The notes under the pieces are model-generated. The model saw only the letters and a list, made by a program, of their open reading frames with translations. It made no database searches and was not told the DNA's origin. DNA of 64,000 bases from Owenia fusiformis (Eukaryota; Annelida; Polychaeta; Sabellida; Oweniidae): the NCBI GenBank assembly GCA_903813345.2, contig CAIIXF020000008.1, positions 16,784,822 through 16,848,821 on the forward strand. The letters run 5' to 3'. Below, one piece after another: positions 20,501-63,472 of this stretch; the first letter of the stretch is position 1, and every line of letters starts with the position of its first letter. The position numbers and the translations under genes were made by a program.

Positions 20501-23500
20501 ACAAGCAATATTCCCTGAACCCCAAAGGGTTAGGGCCTGTTGAACTTGCGAAAGATCCTTGGGTATTCACCCGAGATAGAATGAAATATTTGTTTTATTA
20601 TTCACTTTCAATATTCCTCTCTAGTCTAGACCTCTCTAGATCTTCACTGATGTTTTTGATGCTTTTATAATGTTTTTTTGAATGGATATTACTATGAATT
20701 CTATCAATTTCTTATGACAGTGAATAATGATTAAAATTATATTGTTGATGTCACATTCCTCACTCTCTGATTGGTATATGTCCTTCACGTGACTAAAAGA
20801 TAACAGGCGATATTCAGTGGAAGTCACGTGAGTGAATAATAAAACAAATATATGATTCTATTTTCGGTGAATATCAGTGGCACTTTCACAAGATGATATA
20901 CCACTACAATTGAATATATGTATAATATTCAGTAGCAGTTTAAGCACAATATATATATTGGTATTTATCATATTAAATAGGTGCATCACCTGCCAAAATA
21001 TAGAGTACATATCGTGCATTTACCTGAAATATTTTAATATAATTGTAGTGTACATTTACATACACATATACATGTACTTTTACCATTCTGGAGGTGGTCG
21101 GGTACATTTCCATATGGCATATACATGTACTTTTACCATTCTGCAGGTGGTCGGGTACATTTCCATACACATGTACTTTTACCATTCTGCAGGTGGTCTG
21201 GTACATTTCCATATACATGTACTTTTACCATTCTGCAGGTGGTCTGGTACATTTCCATACACATGTACTTTAACCATTCTGCAGGTGGTCTGGTACATTT
21301 CCATATACATGTACTTTTACCATTCTGCAGGTGGTCTGGTACATTTCCATATGGCATATACATGTACTTTTACCATTCTGCAGGTGGTTTGGTACATTTC
21401 CATACACATGTACTTTTACCATTCTGCAGGTGGTCTGGTACATTTCCATATACATGTACTTTTACCATTCTGCAGGTGGTCTGGTACATTTACATATACA
21501 TGTACTTTTACCATTCTGCAGGTGGTCTGGTACATTTACATATACATGTACTTTTACCATTCTGCAGGTGGTCTGGTACATTTCCATATACATGTACTTT
21601 TACCATTCTGCAGGTGGTCTGGTACATTTCCATATACATGTACTTTTACCATTCTGCAGGTGGTCTGGTACATTTCCATATGACATATACATGTACTTTT
21701 CTCATTCTTCAGGTGGTCTGGCGGCTGTTATATACACTGACACATTGCAAGCTTTGGTCATGGTCATTGGAGCATCCATACTGTCAATTCTAGGTAAAAT
21801 ATTTGAAATTCATTGCCATTTTCAGAAGTCTCTTGGTTTGACAATTGACAATTTAGGCATTAAAAGTCATATTTGGTAGCTGTTCACTATGTGACCACAT
21901 GGCCCTTTATTATCCCAACAAACAAAGTTTGTTAGGGATATACCAATGGCCTCCATCCATCTGTCCGTCAGTTCATCCATCTTTTATTCACTCAGTCCAT
22001 CTGTCCGTCTGTCCAAATTGGCCACCTAATTCAAGAATTTTCAATGATTAGGAGATCTCTATGGCCATATTATACTTGAATGTAACATATTTCAGATTTA
22101 TTAATAATTTGTTTGTTGGGATTTGCTACTTTATGGAGTTGCCATTTTCTATTTATTTTTCCTTTTACTCGTGGTAATTTCATTTATTAAACTGACTGTT
22201 TTTACCTTTTACCACAAGGAATTGAATTCGCAAATGACTAAAATTTAAATGTGCTTTGTATTATCTAGGCTTTATGCGAGTTGGTGGAATGACTGGCCTT
22301 CGTGAAAAATATATGAATGCCATACCTAAAGTTCCAAACTCGACACTCGCATTTTACAACTACACAATGATGCCAAACACTACATGTGGTGTGCCAAAGG
22401 ACGACTCCTGGATTATGTTACGTAATCCAACCACTAGTGATATGCCGTGGCCAGGTTTCATATTGGGCCAAACACCAGCCTCTGTTTGGTATTGGTGTGC
22501 TGATCAGGTAGTAATGTTATATGGGTATTAGAAGTGTAAAAAATAGAAAAAATGATTGGAGTCAAGTTCAACTTTAAGACCCACAGTTTTCATACCTTGG
22601 AATCTGAGGCTAAAATTCCTGCCCAAAATCCTATTATTTTGTCATAGATGGAGGGTTATGATGAATGAGATATCATTTTATTCAGCCTACGTAATGGTGA
22701 TTCTTATGTATTAGATAAATGGAAGTGCAGCAGTCAGCCTCATTAGTTGCCAATTAAGGGCCATTAATATGCTTCAAAAGCAATCTGAATAGAATTGAAC
22801 CAATGAGATCCCAGCAATAAATTATCTGATCGACCCATGTTAAATCCCACATCAGTCAGATGTTTTGTTTGTTTTTCAAATAGAAAAAGGGTCATGTAAG
22901 GTCATATAGACAGTTCCACATTTACCACATCTTCTGAAACTTTACCATGATATACTCAAATATTACCACATTTCAAAAAGAAGCACAACATGAAAATATT
23001 GATAGCATCAGATGTACTCAGTACTACATGTACTAAAAAAGTACCAGATGTACTCAGACAGTACTACATATACTCAAACAGTATCAGGTGTACTTGGAGA
23101 GTCCTACATGTACTCAAATAGTATCAGATGTACTCATTGAGATCCACATGTACTCAAATAGTATCAGATACACTCAAAAAGTACTACATGTACTCAAATA
23201 GTACCAGATGTACTCAGAGTTCTTCATGTACTTAAATAGAACCAGATGTACTCAGAGTTCTACATGTACTTAAATAGTACCAGATATACCTAGAGAGTAC
23301 TACTTGTACTCAGGTAGTACCAGATAATCAAGTAGTACTCACAGAGTTTTACATGAATTAGAATAGTACCAGATGTACACTGAAAGTTAACACATATACT
23401 CAAATAGTAGTAAATGTCCTCGGAGAGTATTACATGTATATAAATACTTTCACTTCTACTCAGACAGTACTACATGTATTCAAACAGTACCACATGTGGT

Positions 23501-46308: not shown

Positions 46309-49300
46309 GTAAGTTCTACAAGCTAATACATTTCTATTTCACACTTATTGAAACACCCCTACGGAACTTCTCTTTTGTCAAAATATATTTTTTTTAAAAA
46401 TGAAGCTTAATTGGAAACAGTTAAAATGCTGTTATGTAAAGAAGTGAAATAATACAGCAACTTGCAAAACATAAACATCAAAACTTCAAGACTATAGTGC
46501 ATAATACCATTCTATTGTTCTTTGAGTTGGACTTTATTAACCATTTGTCGATTGAAAATTACCAAATAGACAGTTTTATGTTACATTTATCTGAGTGTTA
46601 TACCCAGCTACATCCTATTATATTTATGCCACATGTAAGAATCATAAATGTTGCATTCCAAATAAATAACAACAGATAACTCAGAGCCAGTTGGGGATGT
46701 AGAAATTAGTGTTATATCACTTCCATGTTACCTCTGCATGAGTTTGATTTTGAGGTACTAATGTAATTCTCTGGGGTTCATGCAGGGTGTTCTTGGCGTC
46801 TTCTTTCGAAGTGGAAAGGAACACAACATGTGGGAGGGGTGACAAGATATTTTTTGCACTTAGTCATGTGATATTGTTAAATGTAGTTAAGTCCCTTGTG
46901 AAGAGAAAGGATGAGTAAATGAAATCAGTGCACGTTTATTTGAAATTTTCAACCAGATACACAGTCCATCATCCTTTGTCCAAGGGCATTTCAATTTATT
47001 CCATTAGCTGGGATAGACGACTGATCCACAAAGGCAATTATTTTGGCTTGTCTTATATCAGGAGATACAACAGGTGGCTACAGTTCTGGGTTTCATTCAA
47101 TTCAATCATTACCCTGCGTGCAGAGTCTAGTTAAACTACACTCTGCCTAGTAGAGACCATATTACAGTTTAGTTACCCCACCCCCACGACGGGTACCAGT
47201 GACAGTTATGGGTAATAAATCACTTTTGACCTTCGCGCTGACCTTTCTTCCACCAATCAGCGAGCTTGAAGAAACATACGCCAAATGCGTTCTAATTAAA
47301 TATGCGCATGCCATTGGTCAATTCCGGGCTCAACGATGAAGTCAGAAGGAATGACTATATATAGAACGTCGGTCAAATTTGGCCGACGAACACTGATTGG
47401 CGCGGTGAGTTCACAGGTTTATTTTAGTTTGAAAGAGTGAAGACGAAGCTCTCTTTTAAGAAGTGAAGTCAAACGAATGCAAAGGGTATTCAATCATCCA
47501 GGTAATCCTTTATTTCTAATTCTGGCCAGTTAGTCTAATTATCTGTATACTGCTCATTAGAAAAGCATTTATTTGTCTCTGAGATGAACCCAGAAGTTTT
47601 GAAGATAGGATTTTACACAATCCAGGTGTTGTTCTTTCACCAAGGGCACTAGATCATCATGCTATCTCGGACATTATGTTAGTGTGGAATCATCTATATC
47701 TGCTTCAAGTAGCCTCTTTGTTCTTTGTTTCAAGGTGGTCTCGGACAATGGACATATATCAAAGATATTTATTTCAGTCGTTTACATTTATGTTTCTCTT
47801 GAAAAATTTTGTTTTTTATCCCATGCTTTTTTGTCACCACCAGAATGGGTGACATTGTTATAGTCTTAACTATTTTGTGGATGGTGTTTGGTGGTTGGTG
47901 TTAGGCATTCAGTGGTTGGTGTTTGGCATTTGGCGGTTGCCATTCGGTATCTGTGGCAAATTGCAGGTGGCGACATTTGGCATCTTAATGCCCCATCATC
48001 TTTATATAGGTCCTTCTCTGAAACAATAAAGAACTATGCACCTGAGCGATGGATCAAAATGAATCATTTTTCACTTTGCTTTAAGTTTTGTTATACTCTG
48101 TTTGGTTATCTCAAAGAAATTATGAAATATTGTTCAAGCCATGATATTTTCTCCGTCTGGTTTTTCAGTGTCAGCGTTTGGTGTCTGTAAAGAATTATTA
48201 TTACACTTTTGTAATTGCAAGCAGTTGCGACATGTTGACATGTTAATGCCTTGATGTTCTTGTCTTTGTATTTTCTGGTTTTCTCTTGTTATTTGTTTTT
48301 CAAAACCTCTGGTTTCCTTTTATAGTCCTGTTTCTCTTAATTGATTATGTCTATTGTATCTTTGCTTGTATTTCTGTTTCTGTTCCAATATTCTGTGTGA
48401 GTGAAATTCAATGTTTCAATGGCCTTAACTTAACCTTTAATTAAAAAGTAATTAACAGTTCTGTAGACAACAGGTTCTTTATTTACCAATAGCTCCCATA
48501 TGTTGATTTCAAGACCATGCTTTCTGTAAATTTGGAAACTTTCATTGTGCTCTTGTTTGAGGAGTATGTCTGGTCTTGTTCACATGTTGCAATAATCTTT
48601 CTCTTATTTTGCCATTCATACCAATTGTTTGTATATCAGTTGTTTATAAGCCAACTGTTTGTATATCAGTTGTTTGTAAGGCAGTTGTTTGTATATCAGT
48701 TGTTTGTAAGGCAGTTGTTTGTATATCAGTTGCTTGTAGGGCAGTTGTTTGTATGTCAGTTGTTCATAAGCCAATTGTTTGTATATCAGTTGTTTGTAAG
48801 GCAGTTGTTTGTATATCAGTTGTTTGTAAGGCAGTTGTTTGTACATCAGTTGCTTGTAAGGCAGTTGTTTGTATGTTGGTTGTTCATAAGCCAATTGTTT
48901 GTATATCAGTTGTTTGTAAGGCAGTTGTTTGTATATCAGTTGTTTGTAAGGCAGTTGTTTGTATATCAGTTGTTTGTAAGGCAGTTGTTTGTATATCAGT
49001 TGCTTGTAAGGCAGTTTTTGTATATCAGTTGCTTGTAAGGCAGTTTTTGTATATCAGTTGCTTGTAAGGCAGTTTTTGTATATCAGTTGCTTGTAAGGCA
49101 GTTGTTTGTATGTCAGTTGTTTGTATGTCAGTTGCTTGTAAGGCAGTTTTTGTATATCAGTTGCTTGTAAGGCAGTTTTTGTATATCAGTTGCTTGTAAG
49201 GCAGTTGTTTGTATGTCAGTTGTTTGTATGTCAGTTGCTTGTAAGGCAGTTTTTGTATATCAGTTGCTTGTAAGGCAGTTTTTGTATATCAGTTGCTTGT

Positions 49301-52300
49301 AAGGCAGTTGTTTGTATGTCAGTTGTTTGTATGTCAGTTGTTTGTAAGCCAATTGTTTGTATGCCAGTTGTTGTATGTTGATATAGACCATAATTTCCCC
49401 ATGGTCGAATTGTATGTATAGTAAAGATGTGCAAATACTTAAAATGGAGGGGGAGGTATAATTTGAAATGACAAACATCCCGACTTTTGTTTGCTATTTG
49501 AATCAGTTTGATAACAGGTATAACCCTCCAGATGTAACAAGAAGCTATATATATTAAGTATATCCTATGGATATCCTGTTATCCCCTGATTACTAGATAA
49601 CTCTTATATGATTCATTACAATAAATAATACAATTTACTAGTACAACAATCAAGTTGACTTGCATTAAATGAGCATATGATGTAATAAATACACTGCAAT
49701 ATAAAAAGCAATACTATGACAGAATATAGTGCAATTACAAAGCTGTGAAAGCAATACAGATTTACTGTATGAGAGTACTGGGTTTTGGTCATCCCAGACT
49801 ACTTGATATGTTGTAGTTTTATGTTAGAATCATTTATCACATCAAGTGTAGCCATCTGTCTGTCAACCTGTTTTGAGAAGCCATCATTAATTTAATTACA
49901 CATGCCCATTTCTGTAGACTTTTTACCACCAGCATGGGAGTGCTTTTGTAGTATTCACTTTTCAGCTCTTTTCAGCTCTACTTGTCTTCCCCCCTACCTA
50001 ACTCAGCAGATCATTGCTTGTTAGTTATTATGTATATGAGAAGCAGTTGTTCTTCTGTTTCACAACCTGGCCAGTTAGAACTACTCATTTATTACCAGAT
50101 ATCAATGTCTGTCCACCGTGTCCATTACCAGTTCATAAATTTCATGGAATGTCTAAACAATACCATCTGAGGGTGTCTGTTGCTTGACTGGACCTTTGAA
50201 GTTCATGGCCTCAGGTGCCTCACTGGTCACCCCTCTGGACATTGGTCATTCTGGCATTGCTTGAGATGATATGAGTCAGTGAACAGTATTGAATTTCCAT
50301 ATAGGGTCAATTGGGTTTGTTTTTTGTTTTTGAATGCTCATACTGTATATCCTACAAGCAAAGGGTTCCTCATGAGGGCCCCCCTCCAAGCAAGCGATGA
50401 TGTTTGGACCACTGCTTTTGGAAGATGACAATGTGTGACTTCCTTGTGACCAGCAACTGAATTTAAACTTTAAAGTTTTTGTTTAAAAAAGCTCTCACTT
50501 TCTCACAGACAAGGGGGTCACATTATGGCAATGTCTCACTTATTTTGTGAGAAAGTATATTTCTTTGAACCATGGTTATAATCTGTTTGAAAAAAAGTTT
50601 ATTCCTTTTTGCTCTTGTGTTCCTTTCCACCCCAATTTGGTGCTTTATATTTGGTTCTATGCCATTCTTAATGTCAGAATCGAGTATGTTGTGGCAGGGT
50701 GTAATGGGGAGGGGAGGGAGGGGGGTTATAAGGGCTTGTGCAATGTAGCTAGACTAAAGCTTTCTTTAAAGAAACTAAACGCAACTGTTAGAAAGGGTAA
50801 CTCTATGTCATTTTATTCCCAGGAATAGGAGTAATGTTGAGACTAAATAATCTTATTTTAGTCTTGGTTGTTGCTTGCATGTTGACAGGTCTCTTGAATT
50901 CATGTTGACAGGTCTACCAAGACATGTTGAAATATCACTGGTATCTCAAGCATCGCTAACTAATACTTCTGATAAAGCTTTGACCATTTACATTTGGGTT
51001 TCAGGTGTATTCTCGGACTAGTCACTTACCTTTAAAGGCTTTATTAGGTGCTTTTCTCGTCGTTCTTAATCCTAGGTTTCCCTACATTTTTTAACAATTT
51101 GTACTCTGGGAGGCTTAATTTATTTTCTGCAAATATGAAGCATTTAATGTCACTTACTAATCAGCAATTCTACAATGATGTTGTGAGAATTTATTATCAA
51201 TTTATTTATACCAAAATAAAATGTTACAACAAGAGTCCTTCAATTGGTTTTAAGCATTATAGAAGAGTTATCTTGTGAGAAAATGAGGTTCATATCTTAC
51301 TCTTAATTAATCAAGCATGCTACTTATACTGGCTGCTTATTGCTCAGTCTTAGGTACATTAAGTGCACCTTTATATACTATATTTCTATAATGTAGTCTT
51401 GCATCAAGTCTATGAATCTTACCCCCCCCTCCCCATGTGGTTAGGGAGGTGGAGTGTTAGGGGTCACATTGTTCTGAGGCAAGGTTATCCACATTACAGA
51501 GTTCATGTTCATGTTCATGGTCAATATAATTTTGGCATTTACTGTAAAATACACTTGAAATAATCTGCCATCAGCATATTTAAAATCCTACCACTGTTAA
51601 CTGCACAGGACAGATTATATTGATGCATGTGAAATCTGACTCAAACCAAGTTATACTATATGTTTTTTATGTTTTCAGGAAAGTGATAGAAAGAGCAATT
51701 GGGGCTTATTGAAAAATGCTATTAAAATAACCAGTAGTGATGTAAGTATTTTTCTTTCATTGTATTACAATATTCAAGTGTAAAGTGTTCACTAGATTCT
51801 TTTATATTCCTTGCTGATTCCACTCTTTTTCACTCCTTGTGCCTTTAGGTAACATTTCTGTTATTATTAAATACGAAATAAACACAATAAGCAACAATAT
51901 AAAAGCAAGAGAAGAAAACTATGATGCAACCATTTCTTGTACCAAAAAGTTGGAAGAATTGTACTTATAAAATTAGTATGTTGTTCTGTCGACTTAAGAA
52001 AATCCTACAGAGAAAACAGAATCATTGATTGCTTTATCTCTGCTCTAAATGATTCCAGGAATCTCCGTTCCTAGAACCTACAGACGGAAAATGGGGCCCT
52101 TGGAGTGAGGGCTCCGAGTGCTCTCGGTCCTGTGGGGGAGGAGTTTCTTTACAGGAACGACAATGCCAAGATACGAGGTAAGTCAAAAATAGAATCGGAA
52201 GTGTTCATATTTCCAGGTGTGCACATTAAGGTGCTTATATATTCATTACACATCTTTTTCAACAATTAATATGATTTTGTAAAACAGAAGAGGTGATCAG

Positions 52301-55300
52301 TCAATGTTCTAAGTTATATTTTGGACTAAATGGTACTAATGATATAATCTTGCACCTGGCCTATGCTGTCATTCTGCTTAAATCAGGTTTATGGTCGAGT
52401 TTTATTGTTCCTAAAGAGCCATAGAGTTCAAGAGCTGGCAGTATAATTTCAAAGAAAATAGGACTCCATTCAGGATCCATTAGGTCATGTAATTGCTTAT
52501 ATCATCATGTACTTCACATAAGTGTCCTCATCCTATCTTATACAAAGGGGCCTACAATAGAGATTTCCTACCGGACATACTTTGAAAGACATTATCATAT
52601 TTATGATATCTAAGAGGTCAAACTCATAGACAACAGGTTTATCTCAAGTTATTGTAGAATTTAGTTGATTATTTACAATGTTAGTCTGCTCAATTATCGC
52701 AGTTATTAAACAAAAATGCAGGGAGGTGTAAGATCATGTGCTAAGTTATGGGTACTTAATTTGTTAAGTCAGTTGGTGTAAAAAGTATTCATCTTTTAAA
52801 GATTTTGGCCCATTTTCCCTAAATTTTCAAACCACTTTTGATAAAATCTAGGTCTTTAAGGCAAATAGGTTTCAGGAAAGGCATTTACACTTTTTGGCTA
52901 ATTGCATGTACAGTATTTCTATTCTTCTAGTACCTTGTAAGAAAACTCCAAAATGGTGAGATTTGGCTTGAAAAAGTTTATCAATTCAATATCACGCTTT
53001 TTGATTTTTTTGTCACCCAGTAAGTCCCTTTGATAAATGCTGGAAGCATTTTTCCATCCATCTGAAATTCTGTCTCCCTCAATGCAAATTGTTATTTCAT
53101 ATGCTTGTGCATGTAGTTAAAAATTTAGAAGCTCCTTGACAGAGATAGATATATTAAAATCAGTGGTATATTTGCACTTACGATATAACACATATTTGAG
53201 TAAGCGATCTTTGCACCTCTTAGAAAGTGTTGGAAGTAGATCCTCAAGTGGTATATTGACTACTTTACTGTTCATTATATAACATACTTTAACATCCTTT
53301 ATATCATTGAACAATAAATATTAAATTGTCTTTAAATAGTTAGAGGCAAACATACCACTATGCACATACCATTGAAAGATATAACAAAGTTTAGTTTTAA
53401 CAATTTCAAAAATGACCAAGTGTTTTTTGCAGGCTCCTTTGTATGTGTAACAATTTCCCTTGTACAATCCACTGATAGATCTAGGTGGGGGCATGCCCCG
53501 TCCCCTGGGTGGGCCCAGAAAAATTTAATATGCCCTTGAAAATTTTGTAGGCCCAAGAAATTGGCTTTTTGGGCATAACTTGGCCTTTGTTTTGGCCAAA
53601 TTATCAAAAATGGACCTTAAATGTTCAAAATTTGGGCCCAATTTTTTGTTTTAAGTTATTTTTCTTACTTCAAATGTGCCCCTTGTTATTTTCTGGATCC
53701 ACCAGTGCAATATACATGTACTAATTTCCTTATACATGTGACTAGTCTAACTACAAGCCTCTGTGGCCCCCCTCTACTTGACTAAACACCTTCTCACACT
53801 TGTTGTGCAAGGCCTTGTAGCTAGACTTACAAGAGACCATTTATGAAAAATTAGATGTCTTTGAAATACAGTATTAGGGGTGCCCAAAGAGTAAGATATC
53901 AAATTGGATACTTATGTTTTCTTTTTTTTTGTTACACCTTTGGATAATATAAATTCATAAATTATCCAATGCTGTGGCTTTCAAGAGATGAGGCCACCAT
54001 AAAAGGCTTCAAGTCTGGAGAACTACTATTGATTAATTGCATAGTAGCGATTAACACAATTTTCTTATTTAAGACACTTAAAGATACACTGAATATTCAT
54101 AAAAAGACACTCAAAGATACACTGAATATTCATAAAATAAGCACCAGTATATCTCTAAGTATCCTTAAACCAGCATTTACTAAGGTAGCTATAGGGCCAG
54201 TGTACAGCTGCATTCATAAGTATATGTCATCACCCTTGTAAACTAAAATGCACCAGACTCTACCTGGCAGGCTTTAGACTTACTATGGATCGCTTCTGCA
54301 TTATAGCATGAAACACCCACCTTTTCTATACAAAAACCTCACTCCCATCATGCATTATGAATAACATGGGATTTTGTTGTCCAATCAGAGTTGAGCTATT
54401 GAGGAAAAGTAGGGTGTAAATCATGGGAGTTTTTGACAGGTTTTACACACAGCTTGAGGAATTTGCCATAAATAATAGGAGGATCATAATTTTCTCATAA
54501 GTCATTTCGAACGCCTGTTTTAAAGTTAAGTTCATCTTCACCAACTCATCACTCATCTTAAAATAGCCGAGTAATAGGCTGATTTAGGGCCATATTCTTC
54601 CTGTATTTGTATCTACTATACACTGAAATATTTACTATGTATCATGTACAGTACATTGTAGTAAGAAATATATTCTGTGTCCTCCCAATGAGTTTTCTTA
54701 ACTGGATACATAATTTTTGTTCCCGGGGGGTTCACTATATATAAACCTTGACGGGGATCCTCGGCGCATGTGGGGTACCTTTTTCAACGTTTGGTATGGC
54801 AATGGACCCTTATTTTAGGATTTGGTATGGGAATGCCCGGAAATTTCTGACTTCTGAGGTATGGCAATGGTCGGACTTTTGCTCTTCTGGTATGAGAATG
54901 GTCGTTGTAGATACGTTACCTAACATTCGTGGTATGGCATTGGTCCAGTAGTTGCAAATTTGAAGTTGTTTTGGATCGTTTCCCGAAGTATCTTCTTTTC
55001 CAGGGCCTTCTTCAACTTTTGAATTTTAGCCCTTTTCCCGGGAAATGAGGACCAATCATAGGCTTTGATGAAGTATCGCGAGATTTTTCGTGATTTCAAT
55101 ACATATTTGGACATTTGGTATGGCATTGGTCCTACATTTTGAAATTTGGTATGGCATTGGTCCCATAATTGGACATTTGGTATGGTATTGGTCCTATATT
55201 TGGACATTTGGTATGGCATTGGTCCTATATTTGGACATTTGGTATGGCCTTTGGGCATTATTTTGGTTGGTATGGGAACATATTGAAATTTGACAGATTG

Positions 55301-58300
55301 GTATGGGAACATATTGATATTTGAGGCTTCAGCCTAGGACCCCCGTCGAGTTTTATATACAGTGAACCCCCCGGGTTTTTGTTTTACCTATTTTGGATTA
55401 CATTTTTAATGAATGCAGAATTAAAGCACTCTAAATAGCACCACCTTCTACATTGGCACATTTGTGGAGTATGCGTTTAATGTGTTATAAATTGTGATCT
55501 TCATGTAAAACTGAATATGAATTAATAAACTGACTAGAATATGCTCTGATAAATAATTTTCTTTATTGTATTTGTAGTAAAACTGGAAGTCACAGCTGTA
55601 TAGGACCAAGCAAGATCTACATTTCATGTAATATACAGGTAAGTCACAGCTGTATAGGACCAAGCAAGATCTACATTTCATGTAATATACAGGTAAGTCA
55701 TAGCTGTATAGGACCAAGCAAGATCTACATTTCATGTAATATACAGGTAAGTCATAGCTGTATAGGACCAAGCAAGATCTACATTTCATGTAATATACAG
55801 GTAAGTTATAGCTGTATAGGACCAAGCAAGATCTACATTTCATGTAATATACAGGTTAGTCACAGCTGTATAGGACCAAGCAAGATCTACATTTCATGTA
55901 ATATACAGGTAAGTCACAGCTGTATAGGACCAAGCAAGATCTACATTTCATGTAATATACAGGTAAGTCACAGCTGTATAGGACCAAGCAAGATCTACAT
56001 TTCATGTAATATACAGGTAAGTTATAGCTGTATAGGACCAAGCAAGATCTACATTTCATGTAATATACAGGTAAGTCACAGCTGTATAGGACCAAGCAAG
56101 ATCTACATTTCATGTAATATACAGGTAAGTCACAGCTGTATAGGACCAAGCAAGATCTACATTTCATGTAATATACAGGTAAGTCATAGCTGTATAGGAC
56201 CAAGCAAGATCTACATTTCATGTAATATACAGGTAAGTCATAGCTGTATAGGACCAAGCAAGATCTACATTTCATGTAATATACAGGTTAGTTATAGCTG
56301 TATAGGACCAAGCAAGATCTACATTTCATGTAATATACAGGTTAGTCACAGCTGTATAGGACCAAGCAAGATCTACATTTCATGTAATATACAGGTAAGT
56401 CACAGCTGTATAGGACCAAGCAAGATCTACATTTCATGTAAGATACAGGTAAGTCACAGCTGTATAGGACCAAGCAAGATCTACATTTCATTTAATATAC
56501 AGGTAAGTTATAGCTGTATAGGACCAAGCAAGATCTACATTTCATGTAATATACAGGTAAGTCACAGCTGTATAGGACCAAGCAAGATCTACATTTCATG
56601 TAATATACAGGTAAGTCACAGCTGTATAGGACCAAACAAGATCTACATTTCATGTAATATACAGGTAAGTCACAGCTGTATAGGACCAAGCAAGATCTAC
56701 ATTTCATGTAATATACAGGTAAGTCACAGCTGTAAAGGACCAAGCAAGATCTACATTTCATGTAATATACAGGTAAGTCACAGCTGTTAGGACCAAGCAA
56801 GATCTACATTTCATGTATTATAAAGGTAAGTCACAGCTGTATAGGACCAAGCAAGATCTACATTTCATGTAATTTACAGGTAAGTTATAGCTGTATAGGA
56901 CCAAGCAAGATCTACATTTCATGTATTATAAAGGTAAGTCACAGCTGTATAGGACCAAGCAAGATCTACATTTCATGTAATATACAGGTAAGTTATAGCT
57001 GTATAGGACCAAGCAAGATCTACATTTCATGTAATATACAGGTAAGTCACAGCTGTTTAGGACCAAGCAAGATCTACATTTCATATAATATACAGGTAAG
57101 TCATAGCTGTATAGGACCAAGCAAGATCTACATTTCATGTAATATACAGGTAAGTCACAGCTGTATAGGACCAAGCAGGATCTACATTTCATGTAATATA
57201 CAGGTAAGTCATAGCTGTATAGGACCAAGCAAGATCTACATTTCATGTAATATACAGGTAAGTCACAGCTGTATAGGACCAAGCCAGATCTACATTTTAT
57301 GTAATATACAGGTAAGTCACAGCTGTATAGGACCAAGCAAGATCTACATTCCATGTAATATACAGGTAAGTCACAGCTGTATAGGACCAAGCAAGATCTA
57401 CATTTCATGTAATATACAGATAAGTCACAGCTATATAGGACCAAGCAAGATCTACATTTCATGTAATATACAGGTAAATCAAAGCTTTATTGAACCAAGC
57501 AAGATCTACATTTCATGTATTATACAGGTAAGTTATAGCTGTATAGGACCAAGCAAGATCTACATTTCATGTAATATACAGGTAAATCAAAGCTTTATTG
57601 AACCAAGCAAGATCTACATTTCATGTAATATACAGGTAAGTCACAGCTGTATAGGACCAAGCAAGATCTACATTTCATGTAATATACAGGTAAGTCACAG
57701 CTGTATAGGACCAAGCAAGATCTACATTTCATGTAATATACAGATAAGTCACAGCTATATAGGACCAAGCAAGATCTACATTTCATGCAATATAGAGGTA
57801 AGTCACAGCTGTATAGGACCAAGCAAGATCTACATTTCATGTAATATACAGGTAAGTCACAGCTGTATAGGACCAAGCAAGATCTACATTTCATGTAATA
57901 TACAGGTAAGTCACAGCTGTATAGGACCAAGCCAGATCTACATTTCATGTAATATACAGGTAAGTCACAGCTGTATAGGACCAAGCCAGATCTACATTTC
58001 ATGTAATATACAGGTAAGTCACAGCTGTATAGGACCAAGCAAGATCTACATTTCATGTAATATACAGGTAAATCAAAGCTTTATTGAACCAAGCAAGATC
58101 TACATTTCATGTAATAAATTAGTCACAGCTGTATAGGATCTGATGTGAGGCTGAGAAACAGTCATTGTGTGAGGCTAAAACATTTGTTATGTGAGGCTAA
58201 GAAGCATCATTATTTGAGGCTAAAAGGATTTGTTATGTAAGGCTAAGAAACAATCATTATGTGAGGCTAAAATATATATTTTGTGAGGCAAGGAAAAAAC

Positions 58301-61300
58301 TGATCATCCAAAATATGTACTTGCTCTATGTAATATGAGGACAAAAGTTTACTAAATAAATTGAAAATTGAATTTGAAATTGCAGGATTGTCCAGAAGGT
58401 TCAAAGGACTACAGAGAGGAACAATGCGCTGAATACAACAATATCGAATTTGATGGAAAAACTTATGAATGGATTCCTTATTTAGGAGGTAGGATTTCAA
58501 AAACATGCAGTATAACCCCATATGAATTAAAGAACTCGAAGATTGTACAGCTTTTACCATAGTTATCTTAAAAGGGGTGAATTTACCAGTGACAGTTGTC
58601 CAAAGAAAGTTGAGATTTGAATATAGAGCTTGTGCTCTTTGGATATGCCTTGCACTGTGTACACATGTATTTAAATTAATATAGACAATAGGGTTCTACC
58701 CTCTTGCTTCCAAATTTTCTAGTTATCTTCGATCCCCTTATAGTATAGTTTCACTTAAGATTTTTCTCTGAAGTTTTTATTGCTCTTGGGGACAAATAGC
58801 CTAAAGTTTGACATATTTGGGTTGACTAAGAGGCTCATCCCGTTCCTCATGTTGGAATGGTCACCTTATTTATTACAGACTTTTGACTCTATTTCAAAAT
58901 TGTTATTAGTTTTTGACTCAGCCTCTTGTAATTAATTAAATTAGTTGATGATGACCTTTAGTTGAAATCTTGATGAAGAACATATATTATTCTGTTGATG
59001 AAGATTTTTTAGAACTTCCTTAAAACCTCGCTTCATCTATACTTGCAGTAAATAGTTAGGAACACAAATATATCATGCTATGTCCCAGTGAGTTTTAAAA
59101 ATTTCCAGGATTTTAAAGTTACGCTAAGGATTTTTAGAAAAATGAAAGAATGCATTTTTTCTTCTGCATCATAGAAAAATACTCATATAATGACCCCCCC
59201 TCAATATAATCATGGTAAATGTTACCCATTGTACATATTATATACAGTAATAGATATGGTCTTTGTTTATTGCATTTATGCCAAATGTAAATTAAATTGA
59301 TTTGCAATCAATCAAACGGGACATTAACAACAGTTTGTTTATTGTGTATGTACAGTAGCTGCCAGGACATTTTGGAGTGTTAAGGTGACTTGTACCTCCA
59401 GAGTTGTCCTCAAGAAAAATTATCTGATCGTTATAAACTTTGTTTGATCTAAGTTACTAGATGATCAATCCCCCAAAGTGGTCATTAAACATATCCTATA
59501 CTATATATAGCAGTTAGTTTTGGAGCTGGACTGAAAAGTAAATTCCCATACTGAATAATTGGCTATTCCCCACTCAGCACCAATTATTCAATGATATATT
59601 TGTTTTGTTATGTGTTTATAAGCAATGTCAATTGTCCAAATTTTTTAGAAAATGTGGCCAGCTAGAGTATATAATCACACAGGTGTATCTGATGATCACT
59701 GGATACTACATGAAATCTCTTTCTAGCCGAGTATTCACCAACTCTTGGTTCCTAAACAGAACATGGGTGTGATTTATTTTCAAATTTTCCCATAAACACA
59801 GATCAGGGGTCTCTCCTATTTATGATTACATAATGATTCCAGTCAATAAACTTTACTCATCATGCCTCTAGACTTTCTACACAACAGGCCTGTAGGCAGC
59901 TTTTCCCACTTTTTAAAGTATTCCAGGGGGTTCACATTTGACAATTTTGGCCTAAAATCATTTGAAGCTCCCCCCCTGGCTATGGGCCTACACAATCTCT
60001 GTCTACCTGTTTTAATGTATCACATTGATTTTGGCACAATGGTTTAATAAAACTTTTGAATTCATCATGCTTTGTTGTTTAACTATAGATGAAGTGCCAA
60101 ACAAGTGTGCATTGAACTGTTTGGCTAAAGGAGAAAGTTTCTACTACCAACATGCTGTTCAAGTTAAAGATGGCACCACCTGTCAGGAGGACTCTTTAGA
60201 TGTGTGTGTGGATGGAGTTTGTCAGGTTTGCTCCTTAATTTTGTGACATGGGGGAGTATGTTGTCTTAATGATGTGGGGATGTTCCTTCTTAGGTGAGAG
60301 GTGTTTTAGTGAGGTGGGGTGTTTTCAAAGGGAGTTTGGGTTCTTTACGTGAAGTGGAGGTTTTTTAAGTAACATGGAGAAGGGTTAGTGTAGTAATTAG
60401 TTTAAATTGCATCAACATTATTGAATCTGGATATTTCTATTTTGAATTTGTGTAATTGAATTTATATTATTTAAAAAAAATTGCACAAAAATACTACAGA
60501 AATCCATTTGCCAAAGCACTTTATCTTAATTGAGCCTGATCAATCTGATTTCAACATTCAACCAAGGATTACAAATAATACACAAATTATATTTTAAAAT
60601 AACATGAAATTCAAAAATCAACCCTCTCTTTGTATATTGTAGCCTGTAGGGTGTGACATGATGCTAGGATCTCAGGCCAAAGAAGATATGTGTCGTGAAT
60701 GCAATGGTGATGGCTCGTCATGCCAAATTGTGACAGGAGAGTTCACCAAACCTATCCTGGAAACAGGTGAGTGGCAAATCATCCTGAAATATCAAGAATG
60801 TGGGATTTGAGTATCCTTATTTTTGTTGGCTTATATGATGAGCCTATGGAAACACACATTTTCTGTCAACCATTATCAGACAAATGAAACGTACATTTTC
60901 TGATCAATTGTCAATCTCAGAGAAATTAGCTTTTTAAGTAACCATTTTTAATAAAGAATATCTTATATCTTTGTCAGATATTTTTCATCAAGAACACATA
61001 TAGGTACATGCAAAAAACATTCAGTTGACATTCCGTTCACATTCCAATTTTTCATCCATGTTATTGTATATTGTGTTATTGCAGGTTATAATGATATTTT
61101 GCTCATTCCAAGTGGCTCTACAAATATTAGGATAGAAGAGACGGTTGCCACAAATAACTACCTCGGTAAGACAAAAACTGAATCCCGACATAGTCTTCAA
61201 ATGTTGCTTGTTGTAATTCAATGCACACCTGGTTCTTACTTATATAAAAATAATACTAGAGTCAGTTTTATACAAATCTTTTTTATGTAATTGCAAAATA

Positions 61301-63472
61301 TGAATTTCAAGAGTTCTTAAGATAAAAATTATTAATTAATAATTTATAATTCCATGTTTGTAGTAATTCTACAATCAGCCTTGTAAACAAATTATTGGAT
61401 TGCAAAATATTTATGCTTGTCATTTTTTTTTCCAGCAATGAGAAACCTCTCGGGTACTTATTTTCTGAATGCTGACTGGAGGATAAATTTCCCCGCTATG
61501 TATAAATTTGCCGGGGCTAACTTCCATTATACACGTGGTAGCATGCCTCTTGACAAACCAGAGGTCATTTCAGCAAAGGGCCCCACTACTGAAGCCATCT
61601 ATATTGTGGTATGTTATATATATAAATACTGTATTTCAATTCAATCTACAAAGATTTTTCGAATTAGTTTACTGAGTACCATACAACTTGTCAGAGAGCA
61701 ATTAATGGTGTCAAAGTACTGAATATTTTTTCAGAATTTTGATTTTCATTTACAATGATGTTGAATAATCCATTTTTTACCTTCATAGAAATCTAAACAA
61801 AGACATGCTGTTATACAGTAAACCTGTGTATGTTGATTCTCAAGATATTCTTAACTTTGGAGGTGTTCCACTTGAAGAGGTTCATTATAACATTAATGGC
61901 CAACAAGACTTGAAGATGTGTTGCATTTACAGACATAGGTATTCGACTTAGAGGTTTTACTGTACATCTTGATTGGTTGATTTTCAGCTTTTGCACCAAG
62001 AGAAAAATGAAGGGATCAAATATACTTACTACATTCCAAATGTTGCACAATCTACCTATGGCTGGGAGACCACTGAATGGGGAGAGTGCAGTCAGACTTG
62101 TGGTGGAGGTATGGTTCAGTGCCTTATGTTTGGTTTGGCTTTTGGTTATTGTTGGAGTCATATTGGAAGCTTTACAGACTCATGATCACTTACATGTGTA
62201 TATTTTGAAAATTATACATATAAACATACATATAAGATACATGTTGAAGGAACATAATTTATTTATAAAAGTGTAACCATTCCAAATCTCAATTAAACAT
62301 GCTAAAAAAGATAATAAAGAAATAATAATAAATGAAAAGATAAAAGCTTAAAGTAGGTTTTCTTTCAAAAACGTGATGAAATATGCATGTTCAAACCATT
62401 CTTGCCACATTGTAGGAAGCCAGTCAAGAACTGTGACGTGTCAGAAAGATGATGGTGAATCTGCGGAGAACCTTTGTGATGAGAGCCAGAAACCAGCAAC
62501 CACACAGACATGTAGCACAGAGTCATGCCCAGCAAGGTAAAATACTATTATATTTATATTTGTACATCCAATTATGTTGGAATAATCAAAAGGTTGTAGG
62601 ATTGTGTCTCAAAAGAGTTGAGGAACTGTTTCACAGGAGCTCTTCCATTTTCATTGTACCAAGAAAAGGGAACAGAATCTTGTCAGCATGGAGGTAAAGT
62701 TATGGCCTCTCGCTTTTCTTATCTGCCCATTTCAAGATAAATTGCTCAAGATTTATTCGTTTTCTTTACATGAAAATCAAGAGTAAAATATTGTTACTAT
62801 GTATCTTGTTTCAATATTTTTGTGCCTGTGTAGTTTATAGTAACTTTTTTAAATGATTTAATGTTTTAGTTGGGCAGTGGGAGAGTGGCAAGAGTGCTCC
62901 ACCACATGTGGTGAAGGATTCCAATACCGCATAGTCTTCTGTCAGCAAGTGACCAATGGAAACATTCCTAAGATAGTTGATAGTGATGAGTGTTCAGAGG
63001 AGAAACCAACCAATGAGCAAGCTTGTAACAAAGATGTTCTGTGCCCGGTATTTGAAGCTGGACCATGGTCTGAGGTATGATTTCAATGCACAATACAACA
63101 CATGTTCTAGATAATGTAAAAATAATTTGAATATTCACTGATTCTGAAAAAAGCTGCATATGCATATAGGGCAATATAGCATAAGAATGTATTCTTCAAC
63201 AAATTTATAAATCTTATTGAGAGAGCAAAAAGCAAAACTTGAAACTAAAATCCAAATTAATGAATTCATTGTAATTTCAGTGCTCACATGAGTGTGGCCC
63301 TGGTAAACAAACACGTAAGGTGACATGCCAGGATGTACCAACGAGCCCAGGAAGTAAAGTGCAGTCATATGAAGATGATGCCTGTGATGACCAAGAAAAG
63401 CCCAGTGAAGAACAGGAGTGCTCCAATGGTCCATGTGAAGGTGTGGATTGGGTCATTTCAGACTGGACTGAA
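46252..63472 (+). CDS. PAPLN: Papilin-like secreted matrix protein, N-terminal 519 aa, 13 exons, runs off the right edge
   Basis: Exons 46252-46308, 51679-51741, 52059-52177, 55578-55638, 58386-58488, 60089-60225, 60643-60766, 61085-61165, 61436-61608, 61988-62108, 62416-62536, 62870-63074 and 63281-63472 join in phase to 1557 nt. Signal peptide aa 1-19 ([19 protein letters not shown]). TSP1-1 aa 52-102 ([20 protein letters not shown]) with six cysteines 61, 65, 76, 87, 97, 102. Cysteine-rich region aa 108-210 with [32 protein letters not shown] and [14 protein letters not shown]-type spacer about aa 212-330. TSP1-2, -3 and -4 start near aa 335, 388 and 449; a fifth begins at WVISDWTE. No metalloprotease, so it is of the papilin/ADAMTSL class, and the cysteine-rich motifs fit papilin best. 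Papilins are basement-membrane proteins; the later TSP1, Kunitz, Ig and PLAC domains would lie past the edge. ADAMTSL is the alternative. Confidence 0.87.
47190..47405 (+). promoter_or_regulatory. Promoter-like block within papilin intron 1
   Basis: Less AT-rich than its surroundings. It carries CCAAT at 47253, ATTGG at 47313, TATATATA at 47356-47363, another ATTGG at 47396, and a GTGAGT donor directly after GGCGCG at 47404. The spacing (TATA about 30-45 bp before the donor-bearing stretch) resembles a core promoter with a short first exon. Could be an alternative papilin promoter, a nested transcript, or a mobile element. Confidence 0.35.
48620..49375. repeat. ~30-bp minisatellite in papilin intron 1
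   Basis: About 25 units of GTTTGTATATCAGTTG plus CTTGTAAGGCAGTT (29-30 bp), ending near 49375. Reading frames of up to 173 aa on both strands arise from the repeat. It includes many GTAAGG words but no true exon boundary. Confidence 0.88.
51679..51741 (+). CDS. PAPLN: Papilin exon 2
   Basis: 63 nt between TTTTCAG and GTAAGT, phase 0 on both sides. Encodes [20 protein letters not shown] then D. No domain; spacer before TSP1-1. Supported by phase and splice sites rather than homology. Confidence 0.7.
51742..52058 (+). other. Papilin intron 2
   Basis: 317 bp, AT-rich, nothing further noticed. Confidence 0.65.
52059..52177 (+). CDS. PAPLN: Papilin exon 3 (TSP1-1, first half)
   Basis: Encodes ...[18 protein letters not shown] and [13 protein letters not shown], the WxxW and CSxSCGGG core of a thrombospondin type-1 repeat. 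Codon 80 (Ser) is split with exon 4 as AG|T. Confidence 0.93.
53470..53707. mobile_element. CACTGGCGGATCC-family MITE, diverged
   Basis: CACTGATAGATCTAG at the left and CTGGATCCACCAGTG at the right. GGGCCC-rich interior like 13016-13232. Flanks CAATC/CAATA are an imperfect 5-bp duplication, consistent with the family's 5-bp target site. Confidence 0.65.
53744..53828. mobile_element. 85-bp inverted-repeat element, AGTCTAGCTACAAG family
   Basis: AGTCTAACTACAAGCC at the left and GGCCTTGTAGCTAGACT at the right form imperfect inverted ends. A similar end (TGTAGCTAGACT) is present near 50740 and 29545. Confidence 0.5.
54722..55375. mobile_element. 8-bp-TSD element with internal minisatellite, copy 2
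   Basis: Ends CCCGGGGGGTTCACTATATA and its complement, flanked by TTTTTGTT at 54714-54721 and 55376-55383. In the opposite orientation to copy 1. Interior has about five copies of a 27-bp TTTGGTATGGCATTGGTCCT-type unit. Its reading frames are by-products. Confidence 0.85.
55578..55638 (+). CDS. PAPLN: Papilin exon 4 (TSP1-1, second half)
   Basis: Encodes [20 protein letters not shown], adding Cys87 and Cys97, the fourth and fifth cysteines of TSP1-1. It ends CAG before GTAAGT at the first copy of the 54-bp array, and joins exon 5 ([14 protein letters not shown]) to give the standard cysteine spacing. Later donors in the array would also fit the phase. Confidence 0.9.
55588..58138 (+). repeat. 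47-copy, 54-bp tandem array of exon 4 plus its splice donor
   Basis: Copies start at 55588 and recur every 54 bp. Only copy 23 (56776, 53 bp) and copy 47 (58071, 50 bp) differ in length, and a partial 48th copy ends near 58138. Each unit is AGTCACAGCTGTATAGGACC through the end of exon 4 and into CAG|GTAAGT. Most units keep this perfect donor; variants are CAGGTTAGT, CAGATAAGT, AAGGTAAGT and CAGGTAAAT. In the exon 4 frame the unit reads [18 protein letters not shown] (18 aa, two Cys). The frame is open for 22 units; a one-base deletion in copy 23 makes TAG at 56788. The long minus-strand frames are the antisense of this array. Confidence 0.97.
58139..58292. repeat. TGTGAGGCTAA degenerate repeat next to the array
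   Basis: Six copies of (A/T)TGTGAGGCTAA with variable AAACAATCATT / AACATTTGTT spacers at about 24-30 bp, directly after the 54-bp array. Confidence 0.7.
58386..58488 (+). CDS. PAPLN: Papilin exon 5 (end of TSP1-1, start of Cys-rich)
   Basis: Acceptor ATTGCAG. Encodes [20 protein letters not shown] then [14 protein letters not shown]. [11 protein letters not shown] is a signature of the papilin/ADAMTS cysteine-rich module. Confidence 0.94.
58489..60088 (+). other. Papilin intron 5
   Basis: 1.6 kb, non-coding. Contains a CGTAGCCAG-family MITE at 59886-59990. No other feature noticed. Confidence 0.7.
59886..59990. mobile_element. MITE-like repeat, GGCCCGTAGCCAG family, copy 3
   Basis: AGGCCTGTAGGCAGCTTTT at the left and CTGGCTATGGGCCT at the right. 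Interior CAATTTTGGCCTAAAATCAT matches copy 1. 105 bp. Confidence 0.6.
60089..60225 (+). CDS. PAPLN: Papilin exon 6 (Cys-rich)
   Basis: Encodes [20 protein letters not shown] then [20 protein letters not shown] and DGVCQ. It matches papilin's KCELNCxxKGExFYYxH...DGTxC...DVCVDGxC order. Confidence 0.95.
60226..60642 (+). other. Papilin intron 6
   Basis: 417 bp. The first 150 bp is G/T-rich with GTGGGG words; nothing else seen. Confidence 0.65.
60643..60766 (+). CDS. PAPLN: Papilin exon 7 (end of Cys-rich, start of spacer)
   Basis: Encodes [20 protein letters not shown] then [20 protein letters not shown] and T. GCDxxLxSxxxxDxCxxCxGDGxxC is the ADAMTS/papilin hallmark. Confidence 0.95.
61085..61165 (+). 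CDS. PAPLN: Papilin exon 8 (spacer)
   Basis: Encodes [20 protein letters not shown] then ATNNYL. Matches the spacer strand GYNxILxIPxGATxIxIxE of ADAMTS-type proteins. Confidence 0.93.
61436..61608 (+). CDS. PAPLN: Papilin exon 9 (spacer)
   Basis: Encodes [20 protein letters not shown], then [20 protein letters not shown] and [17 protein letters not shown]. YFLNxxWxI...AGxxxxYxR...ExxxAxGPTxExxxI is the spacer consensus. NLS is a possible N-glycosylation site. Confidence 0.94.
61609..61987 (+). other. Papilin intron 9
   Basis: 379 bp, AT-rich, no repeats or coding signal noticed. Confidence 0.65.
61988..62108 (+). CDS. PAPLN: Papilin exon 10 (end of spacer, TSP1-2 start)
   Basis: Encodes [20 protein letters not shown] then [20 protein letters not shown]. 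The spacer ends at YYIPN; the second TSP1 repeat begins at [16 protein letters not shown]. Confidence 0.94.
62416..62536 (+). CDS. PAPLN: Papilin exon 11 (TSP1-2)
   Basis: Encodes [20 protein letters not shown] then [19 protein letters not shown], finishing the second TSP1 repeat with its last four cysteines. Confidence 0.93.
62870..63074 (+). CDS. PAPLN: Papilin exon 12 (TSP1-3, TSP1-4 start)
   Basis: Encodes [20 protein letters not shown] then [20 protein letters not shown] and [20 protein letters not shown] then FEAGPWSE. A complete third TSP1 repeat and the WxxGPWSE start of the fourth. Confidence 0.93.
63281..63472 (+). CDS. PAPLN: Papilin exon 13 (TSP1-4, TSP1-5 start)
   Basis: Encodes [20 protein letters not shown] then [20 protein letters not shown] and [20 protein letters not shown] then DWTE before GTAAGA. 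The next exon should start with the first Cys of TSP1-5; none is found by 64000. Confidence 0.93.

Follow-up and report, generated by a model that had tools for sequence, protein, structure and literature searches.

A 54-bp tandem array amplified from an exon-intron boundary of papilin, and similar boundary arrays in other genes of the same assembly

An array of tandem units, each carrying the end of an exon together with its 5' splice site, was identified within a papilin gene in the analyzed window, a stretch of 64,000 nucleotides with a GC content of 34%. Arrays of this kind recur in other genes of the assembly, and the splice donors of the papilin array displayed no specific constraint. 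We consider it quite likely that the papilin array is a young, near-neutral boundary minisatellite, one of many here, whose inner donors are removed with the intron. The gene and its array comprise the following features (window coordinates; the slash in motifs marks a splice site):

52082 to 52177, + strand: papilin exon 3, of which the coding part alone is delimited; first TSP1, with the 3' end at GAG/GTAAGTC
55578 to 55638, + strand: papilin exon 4, 61 nt, ending at the first donor, presumably the one in use
55587 to 58123, + strand: array of 47 units in tandem, about 54 bp each; a partial extra unit runs to 58138
55639 to 56773 (G of the first and last GT), + strand: first 22 AG/GT donors, any one of which keeps the frame open (61 + 54n nt)
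56775 to 56827, + strand: copy 23, a short unit of 53 bp with a 1-bp deletion that brings a stop into frame at 56788-56790
58386 to 58488, + strand: papilin exon 5, after both intron 4 arrays
60090 to 63077 (approximate extent), + strand: further papilin exons encoding ADAMTS Cys-rich and spacer regions and TSP1 repeats

Exons 3-8 were joined by eye via the first donor. In the joined product TSP_1 (4.2e-05) and ADAMTS_CR_3 were detected above the Pfam cut-off and ADAMTS_spacer1 just below it, and alignments were obtained with solved ADAMTS13 and thrombospondin (TSP1) chains, the best PDB match being ADAMTS13. The downstream exons encoded additional TSP1 domains as well as a Kunitz domain (Pfam), and YGCCPDG-type cysteine cassettes were recognized by eye between these domains, two such stretches having no Pfam match. 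The order TSP1, ADAMTS Cys-rich/spacer, more TSP1 and Kunitz, found here in full, is the one that we take to be that of papilin.

Tandem Repeats Finder, run on the window, reported the array at 55587-58138 with a period of 54, 47.4 copies and 95% matches. An anchor within the unit was present 47 times, and its spacing was 54 in 45 of the 46 intervals and 53 in one. The 3' end of the last unit was altered, and realignment counted two indel places. The 47 copies given by the first-pass annotation were thus confirmed by both counts, and its statement that two copies differ in length was about right. The unit consists of 52 of the 61 nt of exon 4 followed by the intron GT, and the unit junctions thereby restore CAG/GTAAGT. 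Together with the Pfam and PDB matches, this composition supports the earlier proposal that an exon end with its 5' splice site was amplified inside the papilin gene. A total of 44 AG/GT donors were detected, comprising CAG/GTAAGT (35), CAG/GTTAGT (3), CAG/GTAAAT (3), AAG/GTAAGT (2) and GAG/GTAAGT (1), which agrees with their earlier description as mostly consensus; two copies with CAGATAAGT had lost the GT. In a search of the 498-Mb assembly in which the best candidates only were scored, the unit was found at the papilin locus alone. An origin from a satellite or mobile element was also considered and was rejected, since the 108-nt double unit matched the papilin array alone (assembly, best candidates scored). 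The first two units, folded as RNA in a stretch starting one base before exon 4, gave an unremarkable result (z -0.65).

Other repeats were observed in the vicinity. A short second array of about 23/46 bp ('atgtgaggctaagaaaca') occupies 58143-58296 of intron 4, immediately 3' of the 54-bp array. In intron 3, just 5' of exon 4, the near-matching inverted ends cccggggggttcactatatataa ... ttatatacagtgaaccccccggg enclose 'ggtatggcattggtcc' units at approximately 54723-55373, and this stretch resembles a small inverted-repeat element. A 15/30-bp array of about 50 copies with the consensus TTGTTTGTATGTCAG was located at 48625-49378.

Two donor words were used to look for sister arrays in the assembly. 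The whole-assembly search with CAGGTAAGT (three words spaced 35-60 bases) returned 109 hits, and at least 12 distinct arrays were present among the 100 matches listed. By reading, 11 of these 12 lie at a coding exon, namely papilin and loci L001-L010, the exception being L019; at L005 the first array donor lies 87 bases downstream of the donor that belongs to the exon. The affected genes encode CTDNEP1-like (L001), kringle (L003), coiled-coil (L004), methyltransferase-like (L005), PP2A B56 (L007) and VPS35L-like (L008) proteins and a protein kinase (L006, Pfam), which is presumably MOK-like. The copy number at L003 reaches about 69. Protein matches support six of the ten loci L001-L010, in addition to papilin, and the boundaries of L002, L004, L009 and L010 were read from an open reading frame, the weakest being L009, whose fetched locus is cut inside the exon. 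With ATGGTAAGT, 97 hits fell into 18 distinct arrays, 16 of which were fetched. Twelve of the 16 start at an exon by reading, two do not (L027 and L028), and L029 and L031 were placed in neither class. Ten of the 12 were scanned, revealing MBT, fn3 and PDZ above the Pfam cut-off and Laminin_B and M20_dimer below it; five had no match. Taking both donor words together, 23 of 28 arrays, papilin included, begin by reading at the 5' splice site of a coding exon (one of them 87 bases past it). A clear protein match was obtained for 10 of these 23, and for the other 13 the assignment used a match below the threshold or an uninterrupted reading frame.

Some of these loci showed further features. Three related 59-bp donor arrays lie within about 120 kb on C6 (39.61, 39.68 and 39.73 Mb, the first being L033), perhaps as duplicated genes sharing one boundary array. 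At L006, the 65-bp consensus unit following the MOK-like kinase exon (1762-2290) contains CACTTGCAG/AAACAACATTACGACAG/GTAAGT, possibly a 17-nt exon between an acceptor-like site and a donor.

Boundary arrays were detected on acceptor sides as well as donor sides, in several genes. One of them lies in the window and another, L014, is an acceptor-side array at an eIF3c exon that was located via a control word.

21065 to 21690, + strand: 46-bp array of 13 copies with the consensus CTTTTACCATTCTGCAG/GTGGTCTGG, ending just 5' of the 3' splice site of an SGLT-like exon
21713 to 21793, + strand: SGLT/SSF exon, directly after the acceptor array

Backward words served as controls for the donor words. 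The backward word of CAGGTAAGT gave six distinct arrays versus at least 12 for CAGGTAAGT among the matches listed, with 4,470 versus 4,025 single matches. By reading, the 10 control-word arrays (6 + 4 places) included a single boundary array, L014, and L016, L018, L020, L021 and L022 were intronic and close to an exon. A 60-bp donor array was present beside the control-word array at L016, where an exon (VDKLVKAGANILAPVQIGPKRLSGTAVDYAYHLFNL) is flanked by two arrays (265-911 and 998-2154), the 60-bp array on its donor side and, in the preceding intron, a 68-bp array; no Pfam match was obtained for this gene. ATGGTAAGT and its backward control gave 97 array hits each, as raw counts with the control arrays unclassified. 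Pfam matches with E up to 0.01 were detected upstream of 9 of 30 scanned single CAGGTAAGT sites (7 above the cut-off), and in 5 of 10 scanned ATGGTAAGT arrays (3 above the cut-off). The scanned loci were drawn from 40 single sites and 16 arrays, with one open segment per site, usually the longest, in both sets. Single CAGGTAAGT sites likewise often follow coding sequence, which indicates that a donor word is in any case frequently a genuine donor. Therefore, in the single-site and control-word comparisons, with their word-based sampling, no preference of arrays for splice sites was found beyond what donor words predict.

Several conserved proteins indicate which of the repeated sites is likely to serve. 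When joined at the first donor, the PP2A B56 protein (L007) aligned to a solved PP2A B56 epsilon chain without gaps, and the CTDNEP1-like protein (L001) likewise gave a gap-free alignment with a solved CTDNEP1 chain. The kringle (L003) and kinase (L006) Pfam matches run through the first-donor junction, and so does the alignment of the VPS35L-like protein (L008), which has six extra residues here shortly before the junction. Moving to the next donor would cause a frame shift in 15 of the 21 boundary arrays with a usable commonest spacing, since that spacing is not divisible by three in them. These conserved junctions and the frame shifts suggest that the outermost site should serve in these genes. 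For papilin, use of the first donor (55639) is most likely, because it gives an ordinary TSP1 domain and by analogy with the sister arrays.

The main alternative for papilin is a working splice ladder, in which isoforms with 1 to 21 extra inserts of 18 residues and two cysteines each would be produced in the first TSP1. We regard this as unlikely. It would be favored by the 22 successive donors that are in frame and stop-free, and downstream minisatellite donors are used in human IFI6, as far as the consulted part of that report describes (PMC4526556). However, only these first 22 of the 44 donors have both properties. Beyond them, the stop created at 56788 by the single-base deletion of copy 23 makes the remaining 22 donors unusable as coding extensions. 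The inserts would also be expected to land between cysteines of the TSP1 fold. Moreover, the sister arrays ignore the frame. Among the 23 boundary arrays, 21 were usable for a count of spacings, L025 and L038 having no commonest spacing and L034 a tie of 22 and 44, neither divisible by three. The commonest spacing was divisible by three in 6 of the 21, where chance would give 7. The significance previously attached to a unit length that is a multiple of three was therefore not supported.

Variation within the papilin array points in the same direction. Mismatches affected 12 of 423 cells in the donor 9-mer and 52 of 2129 elsewhere in the unit (p = 0.61; cells are not independent and p is rough), and so the view that the donors had been maintained did not hold up. 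Among 26 distinct variants, four were synonymous, as would be expected without selection (expected fraction 0.185). None of the 26 creates a stop codon, against an expectation of about 1.5 (fraction 0.056), and this point speaks against a near-neutral reading. A total of nine arrays, papilin included, were compared in this way, with p-values that are rough because the cells within one array are not independent. In L008 the donor 9-mer was better kept than the rest (6 of 373 versus 117 of 1756, p = 2.6e-05), which argues against a near-neutral reading. The opposite was seen in L003 and L004, whose donors were less well kept (p = 0.016 and 0.024, respectively). Differences in the six remaining arrays, papilin among them, were not significant. 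In L008 (rho 0.61) and L009 (rho 0.43), units farther from the exon diverged more from the consensus, and no significant trend of this kind was detected in papilin (rho 0.21) or L003 (0.21). The gradient in L008 and L009 looks as if growth or homogenization occurs at the exon end.

Returning to the near-neutral boundary minisatellite as the preferred reading, its history may be outlined as follows. A local tandem duplication of the exon 4/intron 4 boundary would have started the array, and slippage or unequal exchange would then account for its growth and homogenization. With the first donor (55639) in use, the ancestral TSP1 domain would be restored and the other copies would leave with intron 4, and the array itself would have little function, if any. 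The first duplication was perhaps aided by AAGT, which is common to the exon (GGAAGTC) and the donor (GGTAAGTC). At the repeat start, AAGT is present in both the exon GGAAGTCACAG and the donor GGTAAGTCACAG. The CTDNEP1-like and VPS35L-like arrays start alike (exon TCAAGTG and CCAAGTC versus donor GTAAGTG and GTAAGTC, respectively), and the shared start was not seen in the other CAGGTAAGT arrays whose edges were read. A birth helped by AAGT is therefore offered as a suggestion from these edge sequences.

A more far-reaching proposal is that, across a large class of boundary minisatellites, the outermost site is reliably selected by the spliceosome even where up to dozens of near-identical donors or acceptors compete, and that in the few genes with a unit that leaves the frame open (papilin and VPS35L) inner donors are used at a low level, giving length-variable proteins. 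We put this forward tentatively, as a possibility with the balance of probability against it.

Three other explanations were considered. The array could act in cis as a decoy or reservoir for U1 binding, altering splicing efficiency or blocking early polyadenylation, and the 44 AG/GT donors, 35 of them CAG/GTAAGT, within 2.5 kb would suit such a role. This appears improbable, as conservation in the papilin unit is no higher at the donors than elsewhere and like arrays occur on acceptor sides, where the common factor is not U1 binding. It is still less probable that each CAG/GTAAGT is a zero-length recursive site by which the array is removed stepwise: the consensus unit, TTTCATGTAATATACAG/GTAAGT, does place AG directly 5' of the donor, but by reading no long pyrimidine tract precedes that AG, and the final mRNA would be identical to that expected of a boundary minisatellite. 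Long tandem arrays are error-prone in assemblies and the copy number may be off, but an assembly artefact is hardly credible for units with distinct, scattered variants, in an assembly where 22 further arrays were read as boundary arrays.

The host was considered from a neuropeptide gene. The FMRFGKR pattern gave five hits within 674 bp. A single open frame at this locus contains FMRFG 21 times, in 20 cases continued as FMRFGKK or FMRFGKR. This locus is presumably a molluscan or annelid-type FMRFamide precursor, and on this basis the host was taken, with fairly high confidence, as a lophotrochozoan. An amphioxus host was considered because of the literature on boundary minisatellites in that animal. 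Matches to the GFP family were not obtained, nor were matches to the mollusc haemocyanin domain or COX1, although none of these three negatives demonstrates absence.

The closest known systems are the 'mirages' of amphioxus. As described in the consulted parts of these papers, they are minisatellite-like duplications of exon-intron boundaries, affecting either the 5' or the 3' side, in which many units carry AG/GT, and they occur in Adh3, the globins BflGb6 and BflGb9, and TnC, with similar repeats in PGBD5 (PMC3087553, PMC3902484). Normal splicing is reported there not to be disturbed by them (PMC3087553, PMC3902484). The papilin array is alike in that its tandem repeats run across a genuine boundary between exon and intron and mostly contain splice-site sequence, and in that arrays of this type recur in several genes on both sides. 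It differs in copy number, which in those parts is given as 3 and 6 for BflGb6, compared with 47 in papilin and about 69 in L003. Moreover, mirage hosts are described there as cephalochordates (PMC3087553, PMC3902484), whereas the host here is probably a lophotrochozoan. The papilin array thus fits the mirage description in all the features tested, with the probable exception of the host.

Other comparable cases are human. Turri et al. (1995) reportedly placed a minisatellite of IFI6 at an exon-intron boundary. The IFI6 (6-16, G1P3) minisatellite has multiple splice donors, the downstream ones being used and three mRNAs produced, according to the portions of the reports consulted (PMC4526556, PMC2572611). 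On that description, IFI6 likewise has a minisatellite supplying repeated splice donors. However, downstream donors are used there, whereas those here are only potential donors and would shift the frame in most sister arrays. Internal tandem repeats at exon-intron boundaries were described in human segmental duplications (PMC2812944), and intron gain of the Rogers type proceeds by AGGT duplication (PMC4974935). In both, so far as the consulted sections go, tandem duplication similarly adds splice sites at the margins of exons or close to them, but the outcome is new introns or alternative inclusion, whereas here an existing intron would be lengthened. No report of a boundary minisatellite outside the chordates was found among the titles and abstract starts of the open literature, which was partially covered.

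The papilin array is thus probably a boundary minisatellite of a known kind in an animal group new for such arrays, and for papilin itself it is probably inconsequential. The occurrence of a mirage-type array in an apparent lophotrochozoan suggests a general phenomenon rather than a cephalochordate oddity. With dozens of near-identical donors of consensus strength in many genes, these arrays offer a natural test of exon-proximal site choice by the spliceosome, and of how harmless minisatellites of splice sites are. If the outermost of up to dozens of equal sites is indeed chosen, they would constitute a natural experiment on exon definition.
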